DNA from: Quisquiliibacterium transsilvanicum
GTDB lineage: Bacteria > Pseudomonadota > Gammaproteobacteria > Burkholderiales > Burkholderiaceae_E
Reading direction: 5' to 3'
DNA length: 64,000 nucleotides
NCBI RefSeq assembly: GCF_014202215.1
Contig: NZ_JACHGB010000006.1
Location: 310,001-374,000, forward strand
The notes beneath the pieces were generated by a model. It had not been told where the DNA came from. It did no database searches and saw nothing but the letters and a program-made list of their open reading frames with translations. The position numbers were made by a program, and so were the translations under genes. This document shows, piece after piece, positions 1,394 through 13,149 of the stretch. Within the stretch, counting starts at the first letter, position 1. Each line of letters opens with the position of its first letter.

Positions 1394-3948
1394 CTACTGC
1401 TTGGCGTTCTTCATCAGGAAGTCGAGCACGGTCTTCTGCTCTTCGGCGCTCAAGCCGGCGCGCTGGAACATGCTGGGGGTGATGCCCATCCACTGCTTCT
1501 CGGTGAACTGGCCCGGATCGCGTGGACCATGGCACACGGTGCAGCGCTGGTAGTAGATCTTCTCCGCCGGCGACAGCGATGCCATGGCCTTTTCGCGCAA
1601 CGCGGCTGCGCGCCCAAGTCCGTAGAAGGCCTCGTCGAACTTGACGTCGCTCTTGACGATTCTGGGCGGATCGAAGGCCTTCGTTCCACCCGGATCGGGG
1701 TTCGTGCATTTGCGGATCGAGGCGATGCAGGTGTTGGCGGTGGTCGCCTGCGTCAGCCCGCTCGCGCTTCGGCTCGAGGTCAGGAAATTGACCAGACCGT
1801 TGTTGCAGCGCCCCTTGCTGTCGAGCTGCGGCCAGGCGCCCTCGAAGAGACTCACCACGCCGGGCATGATCTTGTCCGACACTCGCGCGCCCACCACCAC
1901 CGCCCCGCGGTCGTTGTAGAGTTCGACCAGGTCACCGTCCCTGATGCCGTTGGCCTTGGCGTCCTCCACGCTGAGCGTCAGCGGCTCGCGAGTCTGGACC
2001 GTGTAGCGCTTGCGCAGCGTTGCGGAGTTGTTCAACTGCGAATGCAGGCGCCAGTACGGATGCGGGCTCACTACATGAACCTGCCCCTTGCGCGCGTTGC
2101 CGAGGTACTCGCCCGGCTCCTGCCACTTGGGCATGGGCGGCATGTCCGGGATGTTCATCTTCTCGATCGTGGATGAGTACATCTCGATCTTGCCGCTGGT
2201 GGTGTGCAGCGGATTCTTGACCGGGTCGGCACGGAAGTCGCCGTGGCGCACCCATTTGTGCGCTTCCGGCGGCACGGGAATGCGCGCCGTGCCATCGGCC
2301 CAGAACTTCTCGAAGGGCGTGTCCTTGGCCGCGCTGCAGGCTTCGTAGGCGGCCTTGACGTAGTCCATCTGCGTCTTGCCCTCGGTGAACGCGTACTCCA
2401 CGCCGCACAGCACCGACAGGCGGCGGAAGATCTCGAAGTCGTCGAGCGCGTCATGCTGGGGCGCGATGACCTGCTTCATCGCGTAGACCTTGTCGATGCT
2501 GTAGGTGCCGGCAGTCGATATGTCGTTGCGCTCCAGCGTGGTGGTGGCGGCCAGCACGATGTCGGCCCAGCGCGCCGAGCCGTTCCACCACGGCTCCTGG
2601 CAGACGATGGTGTCCACGGTTCCGATGGCACGCGCCAGCTCGTTCAGGTCCTGCTGGTGCGAAAAGGCGTTGTTGCCGGCGTTGTAGATCAGCTTGACCT
2701 TGGGGTAGGTGTACTTGCTGCCGTTGTAGGTGAACTCCTTGCCGGGGTTGAGCAGCATCTCGCTGATGCGCGACGCCGGGCAGATCTTCCTGACGGGATT
2801 GCGGCCCTGGGACAAGCCGGTGGGCGCCGTGCCGCCCGACTGCGGCATGCCGCCGCCGCCATCACCTCGGCCAGCGAGCGGATCCTGGCCGCCGGAATGC
2901 CTGTGATCCTCGCGGCCCATTCGGGCGTCTTGGGCGGCGTGCCGTCCTTGCCCTCCAGATAGGCGCGGTACTTGTCGAAACCCACCGTGTACTTGTCGAT
3001 GAAGGCCTGGTTGTGCTTGCCCTGGCTGAGCAGGTGCTGGCTCATCGCAAGGAACAGCGCGGTGTCGGTGTTGGGGACGATGCGAACCCAGTCAGCGCCC
3101 ATCTTCTCGTCGGTGGTGGTCACCTGCGGATTGATGGAAATGAACTTGCAGCCGGCCTTCCTGATGGCTTCCCAGCCACCGTACATCTCGTGGTCGGGCA
3201 CGGTGTACTCGATGCGGTTGTTCTTGTCCGGATCGCAGCCGATGAACACGACCAGCTCCGTGTTGTCGCGCAACTGCTCCCATGCGGTCTGGGCCGAGTA
3301 CACCTCCATGTCGCCGATCACCATCGGCATGATGATCTGTCCGGCGCCGGCCGAGTAGTCGCCCGTGGTGATCGATGACCCGCCCAGGAGGTTGAAGAAG
3401 CGCCCCTGGAGCACGTTGGGACGGAAGATTCCCGCGTGCGACCAGCCCCCGTAGGAACTGGAGAAGCATCCTTCGTTGCCTTGCTTCTCGATGGTGTCGA
3501 GAATGGCCTTGGCGGTCAGGCCCAGGGCAGTGTCCCAGCTCACCTGCACCCATGCGTCCTTGCCGCGCAATTCGGGCTTGTTGCTTCCCTTGCGGCCGGC
3601 CCTTTCCCACTCGAGGTAGGACTTGCGAACCATCGGGCCGACGACGCGGGTCTTGTCGTACGTGCGATCGAGCACGCCCTCGGTCAGCATGCCCGTGGGC
3701 ATCTTGTCGCTGCCCTGCGCCTCGATCTTGACGATCCGACCCTTCTCCACGGTGGCGATCAGCGGTCCGTAGTGGGTGGCATGCGACACCTTGCCGCTGA
3801 AGGCTCTGAGCGCTGCCAGCTGCGCCGCCTCGTCGGGGGCGGTGGCGGCGAGGGCCTGGGCAATCGGTGACAGTTTCAAGCCCGAGACGGCCGCGCCCAG
3901 CAGGCCCGTCGTACTCATGCCGATCCATTGACGTCGCGTGAGGTTCAT
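1394..3948 (-). pseudogene. TorA/BisC-type molybdopterin reductase fused to a TorC-like cytochrome c domain; internally deleted and frameshifted
   Basis: The N-terminal frame (3948 to about 2860) starts with a Tat signal (TRRQWIG followed by a hydrophobic stretch) and has the molybdenum-binding serine region GDYSAGAG. The C-terminal frame (about 2860 to 1394) carries the rest of a TorA/BisC catalytic subunit (ISEMLLNPGK, YRLHSQLNNS). It then ends in a single haem-c domain (CTVCH, complement of 1529..1543) that resembles the last domain of TorC. The frames change in a GGC run at about 2850..2862. About 40 residues present in homologues (the segment ending GQIGLPGG) are missing there, so this is a deletion with frame change rather than a one-base error. 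The start has a good GGAG site. An intact protein would be a periplasmic TMAO/S-oxide reductase with a fused electron-entry haem. It may be inactive, or the gap may be an assembly fault. Confidence 0.8.
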
Positions 3949-4039
3949 TTCGTCGCTCCCCGGATGCAGACGGCCGCGAGCAAGCCCGCAAATCAACGCT
4001 ACGCCGACGCATCGGCCATTGCAAGCGGCGGAAAAGTGA

Positions 4040-5092
4040 CTAGGCGCCGGACCGCCTCGAGGCCTGGAGGGCCTGCGCCGGGCTGATGTCCGTGCGGCCC
4101 AGCGCACGCGCCCGCAGCTGCCCGCAGCCGCCCTCCACGTCCTGCCCAGCGGAGTGGCGCAGCTTGGTGAGCACGCCGCGCCGGTGCAGCGCCCGCGCCA
4201 TCGCCGCCGCGCGCTCCCATGACGGCCGCCTGAACGGCAGCTCGTCCACCGCGTTGTAGGGGATCAGGTTCATCACCGCGTAGCGGCCGGCGAGCAGCCG
4301 TGCAATGCCTTCCACCTCGTCGTCGCCGTCGTTGATTCCCTCCAGCAGCGTCCACTGGAACTGGACCGGGTAGCCGGTGGCGCGCGAGTACGCATCGGCC
4401 AGCTCGACCAGCTCCGCGGGGTCGATGCGCGGCGCGCGCGGCAGCAGCTTCTCGCGCAATGCTGCGCGGGTCGTGTGCAGCGAGAGCGCCAGCGCGGGCC
4501 GCACCGGCCCCTCGGGCAGGCGCTCGAACACCCGCCGGTCGCCCACCGTGGAAAAGACCAGGTTCTTGTGGCCGATGCCGCCCTCGGTGCCCAGCAGCTC
4601 GATCGCCTCCATCACGTTGTCGAGGTTGTGCGCCGGCTCGCCCATGCCCATGAACACCACCTTCTTCACCGGACGCCGCGCACGGGCCAGCGCCACCTGC
4701 GCGACGATCTCGGCGCTGCCGACCTGGCGCAGCAGCCCGTCGCGGCCGGTCATGCAGAACACGCAGCCCACCGCGCAGCCGACCTGGGTGGACACGCAGA
4801 CCCCGTCGCGCGGCAGCAGCACGCTCTCGACCGCCTGCCCGTCGGCCAGCCCCACCAGCAGGCGCGCCGAGCCATCCTCGCCCGGGTGCTCCGAACGCAC
4901 GCGCGCCACCGCAGCGAGCGTCTGCGCAAGCGCGGGCAGCGCATCTCGCAGCCGCGCGGGCATGAAGTCCTCGGGGCGCTGGCGGCCGCGGCCCAGCGGC
5001 TCCGCGCGCGCCCAGTTGCGCAGCAGCAGCCGTCGATGGGCAGGGCCGGCGCCATGGGCGGCCATCGTCTCTGAGAGGTGGTCGATCTTCAT
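4040..5092 (-). CDS. RlmN-like radical SAM methyltransferase (short paralogue)
   Basis: A 350-residue radical SAM protein of the RlmN/Cfr family, which methylates C2 or C8 of adenosine in 23S rRNA or tRNA. The 4Fe-4S cysteines are C106, C110 and C113 (CAVGCVFC). The two extra catalytic cysteines of RlmN are also present, C99 in CVSTQVGC and C323 in GGCGQL. The GMGEP motif is present, followed by AHN where RlmN usually has LLN. The N-terminal domain is shorter than in housekeeping RlmN, and the usual ndk/ispG/hisS neighbours are absent, so this is more likely a second, specialised copy. It is the first gene upstream of the torA-like reductase on the same strand (91-bp gap). Confidence 0.8.
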   Translation of the reverse strand: MKIDHLSETMAAHGAGPAHRRLLLRNWARAEPLGRGRQRPEDFMPARLRDALPALAQTLAAVARVRSEHPGEDGSARLLVGLADGQAVESVLLPRDGVCVSTQVGCAVGCVFCMTGRDGLLRQVGSAEIVAQVALARARRPVKKVVFMGMGEPAHNLDNVMEAIELLGTEGGIGHKNLVFSTVGDRRVFERLPEGPVRPALALSLHTTRAALREKLLPRAPRIDPAELVELADAYSRATGYPVQFQWTLLEGINDGDDEVEGIARLLAGRYAVMNLIPYNAVDELPFRRPSWERAAAMARALHRRGVLTKLRHSAGQDVEGGCGQLRARALGRTDISPAQALQASRRSGA

Positions 5093-6116: not shown

Positions 6117-7340
6117 ATGCCCAATCCCGCAACTGCTGCCGAGCCCCTCCTGTCCGGGATCACCGTGCTCGACTTCACCCGCGTGCTCGCGGGTCCCTAC
6201 AGCACCCGGCTGCTCGCGGACCTTGGCGCGGACGTCATCAAGATCGAGCGTCCGGGCGAAGGCGACGAGGTGCGCTACGTCGGCCAGCAGCTGCAGGAAG
6301 GCAGCACCGACCAGAGCGCGTACTTCTCCCGGATCAACGCCGGCAAGCGCGGCGTCGGCATCGACCTGGCCAACCCCGCCTCGCGCGAAGTGATTCTCGA
6401 TCTGCTCGCCAAAGCCGACATCGTGGTGGAGAACTTCGCCCCCGGCGTGATGACCAAGTACCAGCTCGACTACGCGAGCCTGTCGGCGATCAAGCCCGGC
6501 ATCGTCTACTGCTCCATCTCCGGCTTCGGCCAGAAGGGCCCGCTGTCCTCGATGCAGGCGTACGCGCACCTGATCAACGCCTTCTCGGGAATGATGGAGC
6601 TCGAGCGCGGCGGCATCTTCGAGCCGCGCGCCTCCAACCTGCAGGCCGCGGACGTGCTCGCAGGCGCCCACGCTTTTGGCGCGATCTGCGCAGCGATGAT
6701 CCGCAAGCTGCGCACCGGCCAGGGCGCATACGTGGACGTGTCGATGCTCGAATGCATGATCGCCGCGGACGACGTCAACTACGGCGCCATTCTCAACGGC
6801 GGCAGCGTCGATCGCCGGCCGCGCCGCGGCATGGTGGTGCACAAGATCGGCGAGCGCTACGTGGCCACCCAGCTGGGCAGCGGTGCGGCGATGTGGCCGC
6901 GCCTGCTCAAGCTGATGAACCGCCCCGAGCTGGCCGACGATCCGCGCTTCCAGACCCCCGGCGATCGCCGCGTGCACTGGGATGCGCTGGAGGAGATCAT
7001 CCGCGAGTGGCTGAGCGGCTACGCCAGCGTGGAAGAGGCGGTGGCGGCCATCAGCGCGGCCCGCATGCCCGCGGCTCCGGTGACCCTGGCCGAGGAGATG
7101 ATCGACCACCCGCACCTCGCGCAGCGTCAGTTCTTCCAGGACGTGCCGCACGGCGCCGGCGGCAAGGCGCGCATCACCGCGCAGCCCTTCCACCTGGACG
7201 GCGGGCCGGTGAAGCCGACCGGGCCGGCGCCCTGGCGGATCGGCGAGCACACGCGCGAGGTGCTGGGCGAGGTGCTGGGGTATTCCGCGGAACGGATCGC
7301 GGGGCTGCACGATAAGGGCGCAATCGCGTTCGGGAGCTGA
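6117..7340 (+). CDS. CaiB/BaiF family (class III) CoA-transferase
   Basis: A 407-residue family III CoA-transferase. These enzymes move CoA between carboxylic acids through an aspartyl-CoA thioester. Family signatures are VLDFTRVLAGPY at the N-terminus, LGADVIKIERP, and the catalytic aspartate in AYVDVSMLE. Length is typical and the frame is intact. The acids cannot be predicted from sequence alone. It sits upstream of acyl-CoA ligases, a MaoC hydratase and an acyl-CoA dehydrogenase, which suggests a role in activating a carboxylic acid for beta-oxidation-like breakdown. The ATG at 6117 has only a weak ribosome site. Confidence 0.9.
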   Translation: MPNPATAAEPLLSGITVLDFTRVLAGPYSTRLLADLGADVIKIERPGEGDEVRYVGQQLQEGSTDQSAYFSRINAGKRGVGIDLANPASREVILDLLAKADIVVENFAPGVMTKYQLDYASLSAIKPGIVYCSISGFGQKGPLSSMQAYAHLINAFSGMMELERGGIFEPRASNLQAADVLAGAHAFGAICAAMIRKLRTGQGAYVDVSMLECMIAADDVNYGAILNGGSVDRRPRRGMVVHKIGERYVATQLGSGAAMWPRLLKLMNRPELADDPRFQTPGDRRVHWDALEEIIREWLSGYASVEEAVAAISAARMPAAPVTLAEEMIDHPHLAQRQFFQDVPHGAGGKARITAQPFHLDGGPVKPTGPAPWRIGEHTREVLGEVLGYSAERIAGLHDKGAIAFGS

Positions 7341-7891: not shown

Positions 7892-8029
7892 TTCCGCTCT
7901 GTTTCATCGGCAGGCGCCGATGCTCGCCCGCCGCGCACCCGGCCGGCCCGGGCAGATGCCGCGGCGGCCGGCGTTGGCGTATCTTCGACCTGCCGCCCCC
8001 CTGCGCACCGCACCCCTGGAGGAAATCCG

Positions 8030-8902
8030 ATGGGAGTCACGCACCGAACCCACGTCAGCTACATCGACCGGACGCGGGCCTACTACGCCGCGCTCGGCTA
8101 TGAGCGACCGTACCAGTACGCGCACCACACCGACGCGCCGTTCGCCCGGCTCGCCAGGCCGCTGTCCGAGTGCCGGGCAGCGCTGGTCACCACCACGAGC
8201 CCCTGGAACGACGACCCGGCCGCGCTTCCGAAGCCCTTCGAGCGCAGCGGGGTATGGGCGGGCGACGCCTCCAGCGTCCCTGAACGCCTGCTCACCGAAA
8301 ACCGTTCCTGGGACAAGGAGAGCACGCACACCCGCGACGTGCAGTCCTTCCTGCCGATCGGGCACCTGAAGGCGCATGCCGAGGCGGGCCGGATCGCCGA
8401 CGCCGGCCCGCGCTTCTACGGCGTGCCGACCGAATACTCGCAGTCGCGCACGCTGCGCGAGGACGCCCCCGCCATCGAGGCGATGTGCCGCGAGGACCGG
8501 GTCGACGTCGTCCTGCTCGCAGCGCTCTGACCCGTCTGCCACCAGACCGTGAGTCTGGTCAGCCGGTACCTGGAGTCGCGCGGCATCCCGACCGTCGTCA
8601 TGGGCAGTGCGCGCGACATCGTCGAGGAGTGCGGGGTTGCCCGCTTCCTGTTCACGGACTTTCCGCTCGGAAATCCGGTCGGCAAACCGTACGACGCGGC
8701 GATGCAGCACGCCACCGTGGGGTTTGCGCTGGACCTCCTCGAGCACGCCTTCCTGCCCCGCACGACGGTGCAGACGCCCTGGCGCTGGAGCGACGACGAG
8801 TCGTGGCGCGAGGTGTACGCGCGAATCGACCCCGAGCGCATCGAGGCGCTGAGACGCGAAGGCGAGGCTAGACGGGCGCTGCAGGCTGGCGCGCGGAAGT
8901 GA
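8030..8902 (+). CDS. Selenoprotein of the GrdB/PrdB (glycine/proline reductase B) family, UGA = Sec167
   Basis: Two adjacent frames (8030..8530 and 8549..8902) are in the same phase, separated only by TGA at 8528..8530. Read through, they give one 290-residue protein with the redox motif U-P-V-C-H (Sec167, Cys170), as in selenoprotein-B-like members of the glycine/sarcosine/betaine/D-proline reductase family. The N-terminal phrase SYIDRTRAYYAALGYERPY and the C-terminal FLFTDFPLGNPVGKPYD are family-like, and protein similarity runs evenly across the UGA. A perfect stem-loop starts 11 nt after the UGA (see SECIS entry). The start has a strong GGAGGAAA site. No grdA/grdE partners are nearby, so substrate and reaction are unknown. 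The host must also encode selA, selB, selC and selD elsewhere. Confidence 0.88.
8531..8562 (+). promoter_or_regulatory. Bacterial SECIS element (stem-loop in coding region)
   Basis: Directly after the UGA, ACCAGAC (8541..8547) pairs perfectly with GTCTGGT (8553..8559) around the 5-nt loop CGTGA. CTG (8536..8538) and CAG (8560..8562) can extend the stem past a small bulge. The apical loop begins 17 nt after the UGA and has G among its first two bases. Both features agree with the known rules for SelB-binding bacterial SECIS elements. Confidence 0.8.
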
Positions 8903-8936
8903 GCACAGGCGTGCGGGGGCGCGGCCCGCCCGCGCG

Positions 8937-9092
8937 CGACTCCAACGCATCGTCGGTGACGAGCACAGCGCGAGCAAATGGCTCAACAGTGAGAACCGGC
9001 GCATAAACGGCCGCCCGGTCGACCTGATCCGTCAGACCGAAGGGCTCGTTCGTGTCGTTCACTACCTGGACGCCTCCCGCGGTCTCGTCTGA
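8937..9092 (+). pseudogene. Remnant of an Xre/MbcA/ParS-type antitoxin (toxin-binding C-terminus only)
   Basis: A frame ending in TGA at 9090..9092 encodes ASKWLNSENRRINGRPVDLI and then a tail ending YLDASRGLV. This matches the DUF2384 toxin-binding domain of antitoxins that pair with RES toxins. Upstream in the same frame I find no start codon and no helix-turn-helix region, only sequence leading back to the end of the selenoprotein gene. The N-terminal DNA-binding half is therefore lost, probably through the rearrangement that placed the selenoprotein gene next to it. Its 3' end overlaps the RES toxin start by 41 nt. Confidence 0.7.
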
Positions 9093-9768
9093 GGCGTTTG
9101 CCTGGCGCGGCCAGGTCTGGCGCATGGTGGAGTCGCAGCACATTGCCGCCACCATGAAGCTGGTCGACAACCGCGAGGAACAGGACCTGCTCGAGTCCCT
9201 GCTGGAATCTGGCAAGCCGGCGCAGCCAGGCGGTACGGCAGGCCTCGACTACCTGTTGGCCACGCCCTTTCGCTATCCCCCAAGGCGGGGCGGGTCACGC
9301 TTTCGAGCGGCCACCGATCCCGGCGTCTTCTACGGCGCGGAATCGGTCCGGACTGCTGGCGCAGAACTGGGCTACTGGCGCTGGCGATTCCTGCAGGACG
9401 CCGTCGACCTCGAGCGGATCGAGCCGGTGGCGCACACGGCTTTCCGGGTGGAGGTTGCGGCCCCGGTGGTGGATCTGCAGCGCACGCCGTTCAGCGCCGA
9501 TGCAGCGATCTGGCAGCATCCGACCGAGTACGGGCCGACGCAGCAGTTCGCGCGCGTGACCCGCGAGGCCGATGCCGGCGGCATCCTCTATCGGTCGGTG
9601 CGCAATCCGCAGCCGTCCTGGTGCCTGGCGCTGCTCACGCCCGCAGGCTTTGCCCGGCCCAGGCCCCATGCCGAGCGGCAGACCTGGTTCTTGGCTGTGT
9701 CGCAGAACAAGGTGACCCTGCGGCGCGATACGGAATCGATGCAGTTTTCTGCGGCGGGGTGGCGCTGA
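9052..9768 (+). CDS. RES-domain toxin (NAD+ phosphorylase/glycohydrolase family)
   Basis: A 238-residue protein with the RES-domain pattern: WRMVESQH near the N-terminus, then FRAATDPGVFYGAES and AELGYWRWRF, which contain the conserved Arg, Tyr, Glu region. RES toxins such as MbcT, ParT and Res degrade or modify NAD+ and are normally held by an Xre/DUF2384 antitoxin encoded just upstream. Here that antitoxin survives only as a C-terminal remnant. The frame looks full length, although the GTG start inside the antitoxin frame is uncertain. The toxin may be attenuated, silent, or neutralised by a distant antitoxin. It is followed by a 161-bp gap before the acyl-CoA ligases. Confidence 0.8.
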   Translation: MSFTTWTPPAVSSEAFAWRGQVWRMVESQHIAATMKLVDNREEQDLLESLLESGKPAQPGGTAGLDYLLATPFRYPPRRGGSRFRAATDPGVFYGAESVRTAGAELGYWRWRFLQDAVDLERIEPVAHTAFRVEVAAPVVDLQRTPFSADAAIWQHPTEYGPTQQFARVTREADAGGILYRSVRNPQPSWCLALLTPAGFARPRPHAERQTWFLAVSQNKVTLRRDTESMQFSAAGWR

Positions 9769-9929
9769 GCACGAAGTCATGACGGAAGCCGGGTCCGCTC
9801 TGGCCACTCGGCAGATGCACGACTCGGTGCAGCCGGCCGCGCCTCCTTCGACACTTGGCTTTCCGGAACCCCTCGACCGGCCAGCTATCGGAGAATCCCG
9901 GCAGACGCTCTGCCCAGGAGAGAACCCCG

Positions 9930-11504
9930 ATGACCGCCCCAGACCCCTTCCACCAGCCCTGCAACATGGGCGACCTGCTGATCCGCGCCATCCAGCGCGG
10001 CGGCGACCGGGTGGCCTTCATCCTGGACGAACAGCAGTTCACCTACCGCGAGTTCGGCGCGCTGCTCAGCCGCTTCGTGCAGGCGCTCAAGGCCCGTGGC
10101 CTGGGCCGGGGCGACGCCATCGCGGTGCTGTCGTCGAACCGGCCCGAGGCCTTCCTGGGCACGGCGGCGTCCTACCTGATGGGAATGCGCATCACCTGGA
10201 TGCACCCGCTGGGCTCCGAGGACGACCATGCCTACCTGCTCGAGGACTCCGGCGTCACCACGCTGGTCGCCGACCCTGGCACCTTTTCCGAACGCGCCCA
10301 TGCGCTGAAGGCGCGGCTGCCTGCGCTGCGGACGGTGGTCGGCCTGGGACCCAACGACTTCGGCGACGACATCCTGGCCGAGGCCGCGCGTTTCGAGCCC
10401 CTGCCGCTGGTGGCCGAGGCGAGCCCCGAAGACCTCTGCACGCTGATCTACACTGGCGGCACCACCGGCAAGCCCAAGGGCGTGATCCACACGCAGCGGG
10501 TGCACGTGTCGATGGTGATGGCCGAGCTCTCCGAGTGGGACTGGCCGCAGGAAGTACGCTTCCTGGCGATGACGCCGATCACGCACGCGGCGGGCGCGAT
10601 GATCGTCGCGGTGATGATGCGCTCGGGCACCTTCGTGATGAACAAGGGCTTCGATGCCGACAAGTTCTTCGCGCTGGTGAAGAAGCACCGGATCACCGCC
10701 ACCTTCCTGGTGCCGACGATGATCTACGTGCTGCTCGACCACCCGGGGCTTGCGGGCGCGGAGCTCTCGTCGCTGCAGACCATCATCTACGGCGCGTCGC
10801 CGATGTCGCCGGCCCGCCTGATCGAGGGAATGAAGGTGTTCGGGCCGGTGTTCATGCAGCTCTACGGACAGTCCGAGGCGCCCAATGCGGTGACGGTGCT
10901 GCGCCGGATCGACCACGACCCGGAGCGCTTCCCGCAGCGGCTCGCGTCCTGCGGGCGCCCCATCTACGACAGCCAGGTGAGGCTGCTCGACGACGACGGC
11001 AAGGAAGTGCCCACCGGCGAGGTCGGCGAGATCTGCGTGCGCGGCCCGCTGGTGATGAAGGGCTACTGGAACAAGCCGGAGGAGACCGCGAAGGCGATGC
11101 GCCATGGCTGGCTCTACACCGGCGACCTGGCCCGCGCTGACGAGGACGGCTTCCTCTACATCGTCGACCGCTCCAAGGACATGATCATCAGCGGCGGCTT
11201 CAACGTCTACCCGAAGGAAGTGGAGGACGTGCTGACCACGCACCCGGCGGTGGCTGCCGCGGCGGTGATCGGCGTGCCCGACGACAAGTGGGGCGAGGCG
11301 GTGAAGGCGGTGGTGGTGCTGCGCGCCGGGGCCAGCGTGAGCGCCGAGGAGCTGATCGCGCTGGTGCGCGACGCCAAGGGCGCGGTGCAGGCGCCCAAGA
11401 CCATCGATTTCGCCGACGGCCTGCCGGTCACCGGCCTGGGCAAGCCAGACAAGAAGGCGCTGCGCGCGAAGTACTGGGGCGGCCAGGGTCGCGCGGTTGC
11501 CTGA
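9930..11504 (+). CDS. Acyl-CoA synthetase (AMP-forming), copy 1
   Basis: A 524-residue ANL-superfamily ligase that activates a carboxylic acid to acyl-AMP and then acyl-CoA. Motifs are the phosphate loop YTGGTTGKPKG, YGQSEA, YTGDLARADEDGF, and the C-terminal lysine region GLGKPDKKALR. I chose the ATG at 9930, preceded by CAGGAGAG; a longer frame from 9855 has no such site. The next gene is a close paralogue. Together with the CoA-transferase, MaoC hydratase and acyl-CoA dehydrogenase it suggests breakdown of an organic or fatty acid. The substrate cannot be read from sequence. Confidence 0.92.
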   Translation: MTAPDPFHQPCNMGDLLIRAIQRGGDRVAFILDEQQFTYREFGALLSRFVQALKARGLGRGDAIAVLSSNRPEAFLGTAASYLMGMRITWMHPLGSEDDHAYLLEDSGVTTLVADPGTFSERAHALKARLPALRTVVGLGPNDFGDDILAEAARFEPLPLVAEASPEDLCTLIYTGGTTGKPKGVIHTQRVHVSMVMAELSEWDWPQEVRFLAMTPITHAAGAMIVAVMMRSGTFVMNKGFDADKFFALVKKHRITATFLVPTMIYVLLDHPGLAGAELSSLQTIIYGASPMSPARLIEGMKVFGPVFMQLYGQSEAPNAVTVLRRIDHDPERFPQRLASCGRPIYDSQVRLLDDDGKEVPTGEVGEICVRGPLVMKGYWNKPEETAKAMRHGWLYTGDLARADEDGFLYIVDRSKDMIISGGFNVYPKEVEDVLTTHPAVAAAAVIGVPDDKWGEAVKAVVVLRAGASVSAEELIALVRDAKGAVQAPKTIDFADGLPVTGLGKPDKKALRAKYWGGQGRAVA

Positions 11505-11580
11505 CCCGTCGGCGCGCCCCGCCCGGCCACGATCAACCGACGTTCCGCGCGGCCTGGCGCCGCGCCCCCTGGAGTCCACG

Positions 11581-13149
11581 ATGACCGCACCCCTGCCCGG
11601 CCCCACCTATCCGTCGATCGCGCTGCGCGCGCTGGCGCGCTTCCCCGATCGCGTCGCCTTCCGTTCCGGCGACACCGACGTCCGCTACGCCGCGGCGCTG
11701 GACACCGTCGCCCGCATGCAGGCGGCGATGAGCGCCCGCGGCGTGGGCCGCGGCAGCGTGGTGGCGCTGCTCAGCGCAAACCGCTGGGACAGCTGGTGCG
11801 CAGGCCTGGCCTCGCAGTCGCTCGGCGCAGCGGTGACGCCGCTGCACCCGATCGGCTCGCTGGAGAGCCATGAGTTCCAGCTGCTGGACGCCGGGGTCGA
11901 CACCCTGGTGGCGGACGTGAGCGTCTATCGCGACCGGGCCGGCGATCTTGCCGCGCGCCTGCCGCAGCTCAAGGTGTTCACCGTCGGCGGCGCGCTTGAC
12001 CTCGGCGCGCGCGGCGGCGACCTGCTGGCGCTGGCCCGCGACGCCGGCGCGCAGACCGCGCGCGACCTGGCACGCCCCGACGACCTCGCGTCGCTCAACT
12101 ACACCGGCGGCACCACCGGACGCTCCAAGGGCGCCTACCGCGACAGCGCGACGCTGGCGCTGTCGAACCTCGCGGTGCTGGCAGAGTTCGAGTTCCCCAG
12201 GCGGCCCGCCTACCTGGCGGTGGCGCCGATCAGCCACGTGGCCGGCAGCAACGTGATGCCCACGCTGATCAAGGGCGGCACCGTGCACCTGATGAGCGGC
12301 TTCGACCCCGAGCGGGTGCTGGCCACCATCGAGCGCGAGCGCATCGATTTCACGCTGATGGTGCCGACCATGGTCTATGCGCTGCTCGACCACCCGAAGC
12401 TGAAGTCCTTCGACCTGTCCTCGCTGGAGCTGCTGCTGTACGGCGCCTCGCCGATGTCGCCAACGCGGCTGGCCGAGGCGCTGGAGAACATCGGCCCGGT
12501 GTTCTCGCAGCTCTACGGCCAGAGCGAGTGCTATCCGATCGCTTCGCTGCCCAAGGCCGACCACGATGTGAAGCGCCCGGAGCTGCTGGCGGCCTGCGGC
12601 TTCCCCACCGCCGCCTGCCAGGTGAAGCTGCTCGACGACGCCGGCAACGAGGTGAAGCAGGGCGAGCCCGGCGAGATCTGCGTGCGCGCCGGCCATGCGA
12701 TGGCCGGCTACTGGAAGCAGCCCGAGCTCACCGCCGAAGCCATGGCCGGCGGCTGGCTGCACACCGGCGACGTGGCCCGCGCCGACGAGCAGGGCCGCCT
12801 GTACATCGTCGACCGCAAGAAGGACATGATCATCAGCGGCGGCTTCAACGTCTTCCCGAAGGAAGTCGAGGACGTGCTGACCATGCACCCGGCGGTGTCT
12901 TCCGCGGCGGTGATCGGCGTGCCCGACGACAAGTGGGGCGAGGCGGTGAAAGCGGTGGTGGTGCTGCGCCCGGGGGCCAGCGTGCAGGCCGAGGAACTGA
13001 CCGCGCTGGTGCGCGAGCACAAGGGCTCGGTCTACACGCCCAAGACGGTGGACTTCGCCGAGAGCCTGCCGGTGACCGCGCTGGGCAAGCCCGACAAGAA
13101 GGCGCTGCGGGCGAAGTACTGGGCAGGCGAGGGCCGCGGGGTCCACTGA
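11581..13149 (+). CDS. Acyl-CoA synthetase (AMP-forming), copy 2
   Basis: A 522-residue ANL-superfamily ligase with YTGGTTGRSKG, YGQSEC, HTGDVARADEQGR and the lysine motif ALGKPDKKALR. It is a tandem duplicate of the gene 76 bp upstream. The N-terminal substrate-binding half has diverged strongly, while the last 120 residues or so are nearly identical, including long shared runs such as VIGVPDDKWGEAVKAVVVLR. This suggests recent exchange between copies or strong constraint on the mobile C-terminal domain. The ATG at 11581 gives MTAPLPGP, parallel to MTAPDPF in copy 1. The two probably act on different acids. Confidence 0.92.
   Translation: MTAPLPGPTYPSIALRALARFPDRVAFRSGDTDVRYAAALDTVARMQAAMSARGVGRGSVVALLSANRWDSWCAGLASQSLGAAVTPLHPIGSLESHEFQLLDAGVDTLVADVSVYRDRAGDLAARLPQLKVFTVGGALDLGARGGDLLALARDAGAQTARDLARPDDLASLNYTGGTTGRSKGAYRDSATLALSNLAVLAEFEFPRRPAYLAVAPISHVAGSNVMPTLIKGGTVHLMSGFDPERVLATIERERIDFTLMVPTMVYALLDHPKLKSFDLSSLELLLYGASPMSPTRLAEALENIGPVFSQLYGQSECYPIASLPKADHDVKRPELLAACGFPTAACQVKLLDDAGNEVKQGEPGEICVRAGHAMAGYWKQPELTAEAMAGGWLHTGDVARADEQGRLYIVDRKKDMIISGGFNVFPKEVEDVLTMHPAVSSAAVIGVPDDKWGEAVKAVVVLRPGASVQAEELTALVREHKGSVYTPKTVDFAESLPVTALGKPDKKALRAKYWAGEGRGVH

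Follow-up and report, generated by a model that had tools for sequence, protein, structure and literature searches.

A Predicted Selenoprotein Distantly Related to PrdB, Encoded Without Detectable Reductase Partners in Quisquiliibacterium transsilvanicum

Introduction

We analyzed a window of 64,000 nucleotides from Quisquiliibacterium transsilvanicum (contig NZ_JACHGB010000006.1, positions 310,001 to 374,000 of the forward strand), in which a gene of the forward strand, at 8030-8902, is broken by a TGA codon. Two questions follow from this arrangement: is the TGA read as selenocysteine (Sec), and if so, what would the resulting protein do? A first-pass annotation, made from the letters alone, had proposed a selenoprotein of the GrdB/PrdB family. 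Here, we compare the locus with its relatives, search the host genome for the Sec machinery and for reductase partners, and weigh the remaining explanations of its function.

Results and Discussion

An In-Frame TGA Shared Across Relatives

Translation of the frame at 8030-8902 (+) confirmed that the TGA at 8528-8530 is its sole internal interruption, the frame being otherwise continuous as had been claimed. Read through, the gene is predicted to encode 290 residues with Sec at residue 167 in the motif UPVCHQT, and to end at a second TGA (8900-8902). The window and two relatives (L050 and L051) are no longer alike 3' of this second TGA, and because the resemblance among the three ends there, we take it to be the true stop. 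A Shine-Dalgarno-like GGAGGA at 8018-8023 (+) lies 6 nt 5' of the ATG.

A search of the genome_contigs collection returned 29 loci, 28 of them with TGA at the matching codon and the motif UPVCHQ(T/S), and one with Cys (L063, Dehalococcoidia). With the window included, 44 rows could be aligned, comprising 34 with TGA and 10 with TGC or TGT; among these relatives, the proteins of L021 and L051 are identical. In the Sec rows, the motif is UPVCHQT or UPVCHQS; in the Cys rows, it is CPVCHQT or CPICHQS, with CPLDHQT in the remote L033. The UGA had been placed at the site where the family carries Sec or Cys, in the motif UPVCH, and this placement held: among the 43 aligned relatives, the codon is TGA in 33 and a Cys codon in 10. 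This comparison of the codon across relatives provides the main argument against a chance occurrence. In a 27-row alignment (A1, which omits L056, L057, and L078 of the 29 loci), 54 columns are invariant, many of which hold aromatic or polar residues at sites distant in sequence from the UxxC motif. Position 167 is likewise constant in A1 (U, or C in L063), as are C170 (codon 8537-8539, +), H171, and Q172, so the expected conservation of residues 3' of the UGA is present. Against L050, which is 90% identical, dN/dS was 0.22 before the UGA and 0.06 after it; by this measure, selection on the stretch 3' of the TGA is strong.

These data bear directly on the simplest alternative, in which a nonsense mutation or a sequencing error has split an ordinary Cys protein. 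A stop codon of the standard code does interrupt the frame, as this alternative would have it, but the same TGA recurs in three quarters of the aligned relatives, codon 167 is TAA or TAG in 0 of 44 rows, and the strong selection 3' of the TGA is joined by constraint on the selenocysteine insertion sequence (SECIS) described below. We regard a mutation or error as refuted on these three grounds, the shared TGA, the selection, and the SECIS constraint, and give it next to no credence.

The branch is found in records titled Burkholderiales, other proteobacteria, Acidimicrobiales, and Dehalococcoidia, and the titles of the TGA relatives in particular name alpha-, beta-, gamma-, and deltaproteobacteria, Acidimicrobiales/Actinomycetes, and Dehalococcoidia. 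A match at E <= 0.001 occurs in 29 of 300 genomes of the same order, and a match at E <= 1e-20 in 8 of 369 genomes of the class, of which 4 contain one internal TGA and 4 have no stop. When Sec and Cys were mapped onto a tree of 43 rows (L078 omitted), three changes were required. One supported side (95/95) unites 32 Sec rows with a single Cys row (L063), and the Sec row L028 falls outside it. The root was placed for drawing only, and it gives no direction of Sec/Cys change. One row among those titled Burkholderiales in this tree, L056, comes from a record titled Bordetella parapertussis, a title that may be a mislabel.

A second TGA-containing branch is present in the same order (L034-L048), with the motif UPNCTCA (UPVCTCA in L042). 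Its proteins resemble the one in the window in having TGA at the matching place, a UPxC motif, and 26-35% identity, but they differ in the remainder of the motif and, in the four that were printed, in a longer C-terminus. No protein of this type was found in the genome of the window at E <= 0.001.

A Candidate SECIS Hairpin Downstream of the UGA

The first-pass annotation had also described a perfect 7-bp stem with a 5-nt, G-containing loop after the UGA, and this hairpin is present at 8541-8559 (+). The stem (ACCAGAC/GUCUGGU, 8541-8547 paired with 8553-8559) begins at the 11th nucleotide after the UGA and closes the loop CGUGA (8548-8552), which gives a UGA-to-loop spacing of 17 nt. Limits published for bacterial SECIS elements, in the excerpted text of a review, are a stem of 4-16 bp, a loop of 3-9 nt, a G in the first two loop positions, and a spacing of 16-37 nt (PMC13188914). 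Checked against these limits, as had been suggested, the UGA-hairpin region lies within all of them. An Rfam scan of 7900-9100 at E <= 1 gave no match.

Folding, synonymous constraint, and pair counts were used to evaluate the element. The 43-nt stretch folds at -16.7 kcal/mol (z -2.1), and with longer flanks (73 nt) the hairpin reaches a z of only -1.1. Because the energy is only moderately unusual, the case for a SECIS rests on comparison. A search pattern for the UGA and hairpin, modeled on the sequence of the window itself, had a single match there when up to 3 mismatches were allowed, and it was present in 0 of 100 shuffles.

Once rows with at least 85% nucleotide identity had been removed, 26 of the 34 Sec rows and each of the 10 Cys rows remained for the computation of synonymous identity. 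Among the 26 nonredundant Sec rows, the highest synonymous identity of all 174 eight-codon windows belongs to codons 170-177, at 0.83 against a gene mean of 0.49. In the 10 Cys rows, the same codons are outside the eight windows listed, of 195; the overlapping codons 166-173 come sixth at 0.62, the best being 0.68. Since the Cys rows rank an overlapping window this high, part of the conservation at the SECIS codons is not specific to Sec.

Base pairing was counted in 25 of the 34 Sec rows (alignment A2; the omitted rows L050, L021, L023, L053-L056, L073, and L077 are mostly near copies), and the 7-bp helix was 94.3% paired. Two of the seven pairs have changed on both sides, a count that 6 of 500 shuffles reach; one slid control of the same count contained one such pair. 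The changes are pair 15-31, which is U-A in two Sec rows (L075 and L092 by alignment), and pair 18-28, which is A-U in one (L069). Pairs were lost at 14-32 and 19-27 in 3 of 25 rows each and at 15-31 and 16-30 in 2 of 25 each. The number of further pair types in the 25 rows did not exceed that in shuffles (500 of 500 reach it). When seven Sec relatives were folded freely, four kept the helix wholly or partly (L058, L062, L069, and L074), and L075 preferred a different hairpin. Taken as sequence comparisons, these results support a SECIS under selection. In the remaining two of the seven, the Dehalococcoidia loci L060:6487-6529 and L067:6484-6526, the TGA is kept and a shifted stem, CCGUGA/UCACGG with the loop GUC, replaces the usual SECIS helix.

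Selenocysteine Machinery in the Host and in Related Genomes

A UGA can be read as Sec only in a suitable host, and a genome check for selA, selB, selC, and selD had been proposed for this reason. In the host genome (4.26 Mb, 99.27% complete), all four were found over cut-off, with SelA at 570, SelB at 357, SelC at 83.6, and SelD at 436 bits. The tRNA-Sec with anticodon UCA (C5:116296-116387), which ARAGORN also calls as tRNA-SeC (tca), lies beside selA (C5:116656-117999); SelB is encoded on C3 and SelD on C9. On the combined sequence evidence, it is almost certain that UGA 167 is decoded as Sec, directed by the hairpin at 8541-8559 together with the genome's SelA, SelB, SelC, and SelD.

We then compared SelA with the form of the protein in 46 genomes, namely all 29 that had matched at E <= 0.001, plus 17 of the 271 that had not. 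Of the 23 genomes with any TGA form, 22 have SelA over cut-off, as do 1 of the 6 with only non-TGA forms and 8 of the 17 without a match; the first two proportions differ at a Fisher P of 0.0003, uncorrected for relatedness. Most of the 23 TGA-form genomes carry the remoter UPNCTCA type, and among those whose TGA form matches at E < 1e-30, 7 of 7 have SelA over cut-off. The one genome with a TGA form and no SelA over cut-off, G144, is 84% complete.

Formate dehydrogenase is another place to look for Sec in the host. Its model gave 9 matches in the genome, none with an in-frame stop, and the best has Cys in LCHASSV, which we take to be the motif of the Sec/Cys site of formate dehydrogenases. 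Because these 9 matches lack an in-frame stop, the selenoprotein at 8030-8902 may be a main client of the host's Sec machinery.

A Distant Relative of PrdB

The family proposed by the first-pass annotation was only partly sustained. The best NCBIfam match of the read-through protein is TIGR04483 (PrdB), which places it in the superfamily as a distant branch, and its score of 78.9 bits against a cut-off of 300 falls short of membership in PrdB itself. It is also below the cut-offs for GrdB, with 23.4 against 65.45 bits for TIGR01918 and 18.9 against 602.2 for TIGR01917, and it scores 34.2 against 775 for GrdH. No Pfam match was found up to E 1 and no PHROGs match at E <= 0.1; two Cys relatives reach about 21 bits with PF07355, whose cut-off is 22. 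The UGSC family (NF041046) gave 13.7 bits (E 0.047, cut-off 125), and the motif here is UPVC instead of UGSC; on both counts the protein is not a member.

Aligned with the annotated PrdB of Peptoclostridium acidaminophilum (EAL2_RS15370), which scores 310.2 bits with TIGR04483, the read-through protein is 30% identical (65 of 219 positions). Both have a UGA at the matching place and a UxxCH motif, UGTCH there and UPVCH here. The window's protein differs in being longer at both ends and in having FYGVPTEY where PrdB has GFMGG. A Paraclostridium match (H16) was set aside because the frame examined for it contained numerous stops.

Known reductases of this superfamily work with partners, and the earlier observation that no grdA or grdE partner lies nearby proved correct and can be extended to the whole genome. 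PF09338 (PrdA/GrdE-type) had 0 matches in the host, compared with 3 in each of 2 control records, and it matches annotated PrdA at 79.2 bits. PF04723 (GrdA) was likewise not found in the whole host genome and was found in its 1 control record. Both models are also without matches in 14 standard genomes. Unlike D-proline reductase, then, in which PrdB occurs with PrdA, the window's genome has no detectable PrdA-type subunit.

Could the gene nevertheless encode a component of a true D-proline or glycine/betaine reductase, with its partners elsewhere in the genome? The PrdB model being the best family match, and the identity and UxxCH motif shared with the Peptoclostridium protein, would be consistent with this. 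Against it are the score, about a quarter of that of a real PrdB, the replacement of GFMGG, and above all the absence of PF09338 and PF04723 matches from a nearly complete genome in searches with positive controls; the missing subunits nearly exclude a true reductase, which we consider very improbable. PrdB or GrdB proper was accordingly rejected, on the sub-cut-off scores and the subunits not found. Because of the low TIGR04483 score, the 30% identity, and these missing subunits, the sequence data indicate that the gene product is a distant PrdB relative without known partners. A partner of unrelated sequence elsewhere in the genome is possible.

Among named proteins, two encoded by plasmid genes of Roseomonas and Haematobacter, called "glycine/sarcosine/betaine reductase selenoprotein B family protein" in RefSeq, are 47.8% and 41.7% identical to the window's protein over 89% of the length. 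They score 86.7 and 83.3 bits with TIGR04483 and read CPVCHQT and CPICHQT, respectively. They differ in being Cys forms with no internal stop, and their neighbors are SelO and cob genes. In Roseomonas, the Cys relative (L105:6965-9350) adjoins a gene annotated as protein adenylyltransferase SelO; SelO is a selenoprotein family in other organisms.

Predicted Structure and Proposed Function

An AlphaFold2 model built from 27 rows had a pLDDT of 89.1 and a pTM of 0.89, and it places residue 167 between a strand (160-164) and a helix (168-183). Foldseek against the PDB gave 1,195 matches at E <= 10 and none at E <= 0.001. The best 50 of the 1,195 contain no thioredoxin, and the best TMq among those listed was 0.32, although the lack of a match is no proof of a different fold. 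PDB sequence searches returned nothing convincing (best E 0.35 and 0.041). A fold like that of Asp/Glu racemases, which we had suspected, found no support among the best 50 Foldseek matches.

Our overall explanation, to which we assign a probability of roughly 0.6, is that the gene encodes a stand-alone selenoprotein distantly related to PrdB. Its chemistry is very probably redox chemistry of some kind. Because the usual partner proteins are lacking, it probably does a job other than that of a known amino-acid reductase, and the PrdA/GrdE-type pyruvoyl subunit and GrdA not being found would rule out the clostridial proline or glycine reductase reaction as we know it. More tentatively, and at slightly less than even odds, we propose a partnerless, substrate-specific Sec reductase. 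In such an enzyme, the nucleophile would be Sec167, which in the predicted model follows a strand and opens a helix. C170, three residues on, would serve as the resolving residue by forming a Se-S bond, and this bond could then be re-reduced by thioredoxin or cell thiols. The substrate would most likely be a small, electrophilic or oxidized compound that the protein reduces on its own, and it may be held by the invariant FYGVPTEY and PLGNP motifs and by aromatic residues of the N-terminal segment. The setting would be a bacterium with genes for oxygen respiration: six host matches to the haem-copper oxidase family are over cut-off, five of them strong, and oxygen respiration is likely in the host because they are present. 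This family also includes nitric oxide reductases.

A less specific role should be weighed at this point. The protein might be a general thiol-disulfide or peroxide reductase of the UxxC type, to which Sec gives reactivity and which has no single small substrate. The UxxC at a helix start in the model fits such a role, and two metagenome papers, in their excerpted text, class PrdB among the thiol-based redox selenoproteins (GOS, PMC2398784; Sargasso, PMC1088965). On the other side, the invariant columns far from UxxC, so many of them aromatic or polar, suit a substrate pocket, and the structure searches returned neither a PDB match at E <= 0.001 nor a thioredoxin among the best 50. We judge a general reductase unlikely, though with an appreciable share of the probability.

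Relation to Earlier Reports

PrdB-type selenoproteins outside clostridia were reported between 2005 and 2008 (PMC1088965, PMC1794560, PMC2398784). As given in excerpts of these papers, the Sargasso Sea metagenome contained 42 PrdB selenoproteins (PMC1088965), the GOS metagenome contained 235 together with 110 Cys homologues and the motif UxxC (PMC2398784), and proline reductase selenoproteins were noted in Anaeromyxobacter and a Geobacter (PMC1794560). Another paper, likewise in excerpt, lists them in 110 organisms (PMC5029168). Because sea-metagenome PrdB selenoproteins have been known since 2005, the kind of protein described here is not new. The abundant "proline reductase PrdB" proteins of the two marine surveys are also UxxC selenoproteins, and we liken them to the window's protein by description, not by sequence (PMC1088965, PMC2398784).

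A GrdB-type protein has been proposed for C-F bond cleavage, according to partial texts of PMC10838667 and PMC12366334. This protein, FarB, resembles ours in being a GrdB-type Sec protein with a proposed non-amine substrate, in that case in fluoroacetate reduction; it differs in belonging to an operon with a GrdE-type partner (farE), a radical SAM gene, and a transporter, and its reaction was inferred from transcription and genome comparison (PMC10838667, in excerpt). Further excerpted literature includes two reviews (PMC13188914, PMC9312934) and a glycine reductase paper (PMC9751293). Judged by title and the start of the abstract, none of the openly licensed papers returned by our literature searches assigns a function to a stand-alone PrdB-like selenoprotein, which is weak evidence of absence.

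We therefore advance, as a tentative generalization, that a widespread branch of GrdB/PrdB without a pyruvoyl subunit consists of Se-dependent small-molecule reductases from several phyla, one of the hosts having genes for oxygen respiration, and that their predicted fold lacks a clear counterpart among solved structures. Current names for such proteins, as components of proline or glycine/betaine reductase, are contradicted here by the missing subunits, and their genes appear split under standard translation. Should the marine "PrdB" selenoproteins prove to belong to this branch, a selenoprotein family that is among the commonest in the sea would be misnamed functionally. A small, possibly single-subunit member, expressed in E. 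coli, would also open GrdB/PrdB chemistry to direct tests.

Genomic Neighborhood

Upstream of the gene, the window contains a family III CoA-transferase (6117-7340, +; PF02515, 327.7 bits) and a GNAT gene; downstream, there are a ParS C-terminal fragment, a RES protein, and two acyl-CoA synthetases, at 9855-11504 (+; PF00501) and 11497-13149. The fragment and the RES protein occupy 8928-9768 (+), beginning with a C-terminal antitoxin domain (Xre/MbcA/ParS, 51.6 bits) and continuing with the RES domain. In L050, the CoA-transferase, the selenoprotein gene, and the acyl-CoA synthetase at 9855-11504 align in the same order, and the GNAT and RES stretches do not align. The acyl-CoA and CoA-transferase neighbors that the first-pass annotation pointed to are thus present and kept in L050, but as a guide to the substrate they proved weak, being found in only a minority of loci.

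This count comes from open frames clustered around 30, then 46 loci of 3.5-17 kb. Near the gene, 9 of 46 loci have clusters of CoA-transferases, acyl-CoA synthetases, or enoyl-CoA hydratases, 5 loci each; the Pfam scans covered one or two members per cluster. Since many loci are short, 9 of 46 is an undercount. CoA-transferases occur in L050, L051, L086, and L093 besides the window (4 of 45 other loci), and all 5 share the strand of the gene, at distances from 0 to 3.6 kb. Clusters of acyl-CoA synthetases and of hydratases each extend beyond a single phylum, with varying strands, and distances overall range from 0 to 6 kb. The other 37 loci have no CoA-type clusters within the stretch examined, and some have housekeeping neighbors. 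No neighbor family occurs in more than 10 of the 46 loci. Apart from that of the gene itself, eight clusters are shared between at least two of four broad groups; the largest, in 10 loci, includes a member that resembles an ABC transporter ATPase by sequence, and the others are in 2 to 5 loci. Pfam scans covered a part of all the neighbor clusters.

One reading of this neighborhood is that the protein performs a step in an acyl-CoA pathway, for example one in which an acyl- or aryl-CoA loses a group by reduction. The genes flanking it in the window and L050, the recurrence of two cluster types across phyla, and the consistent strand of the CoA-transferases are what such a pathway might leave behind. 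CoA-transferases, acyl-CoA synthetases, and enoyl-CoA hydratases are very large families, however, and the 9 in 46 is a raw count, uncorrected for background. The loci without such clusters, the variable distances and strands of the synthetases and hydratases, and the housekeeping neighbors in L061, L064, and L065 and in L083 and L087 also count against it, and we hold an acyl-CoA pathway step to be improbable. A CoA-linked role stays possible because the clusters do recur in these 9 loci and all 5 CoA-transferases are on the same strand within 4 kb. We read the pattern as that of a gene without a fixed partner, which may have a CoA link in some lineages.

Smaller groups of loci share other neighbors. 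Upstream of the gene in L053-L056 are a 3-hydroxyisobutyrate-dehydrogenase-like gene and one with a metallo-beta-lactamase fold (Pfam scan on L054). ClpP, Ham1, and RNase PH are common to 3 of the 11 loci titled Acidimicrobi-, PrpF and aconitase to three gammaproteobacterial loci, and polyprenyl synthetase and Obg to two genomes of the same order with Cys forms. Elsewhere in the window, a molybdopterin oxidoreductase at 1394-4107 (-), with a weak match to the Fdh-alpha model, appears as two overlapping frames (1394-2920 and 2689-4107); because these are in different reading frames, the split is a frameshift, from error or decay, and not an in-frame stop.
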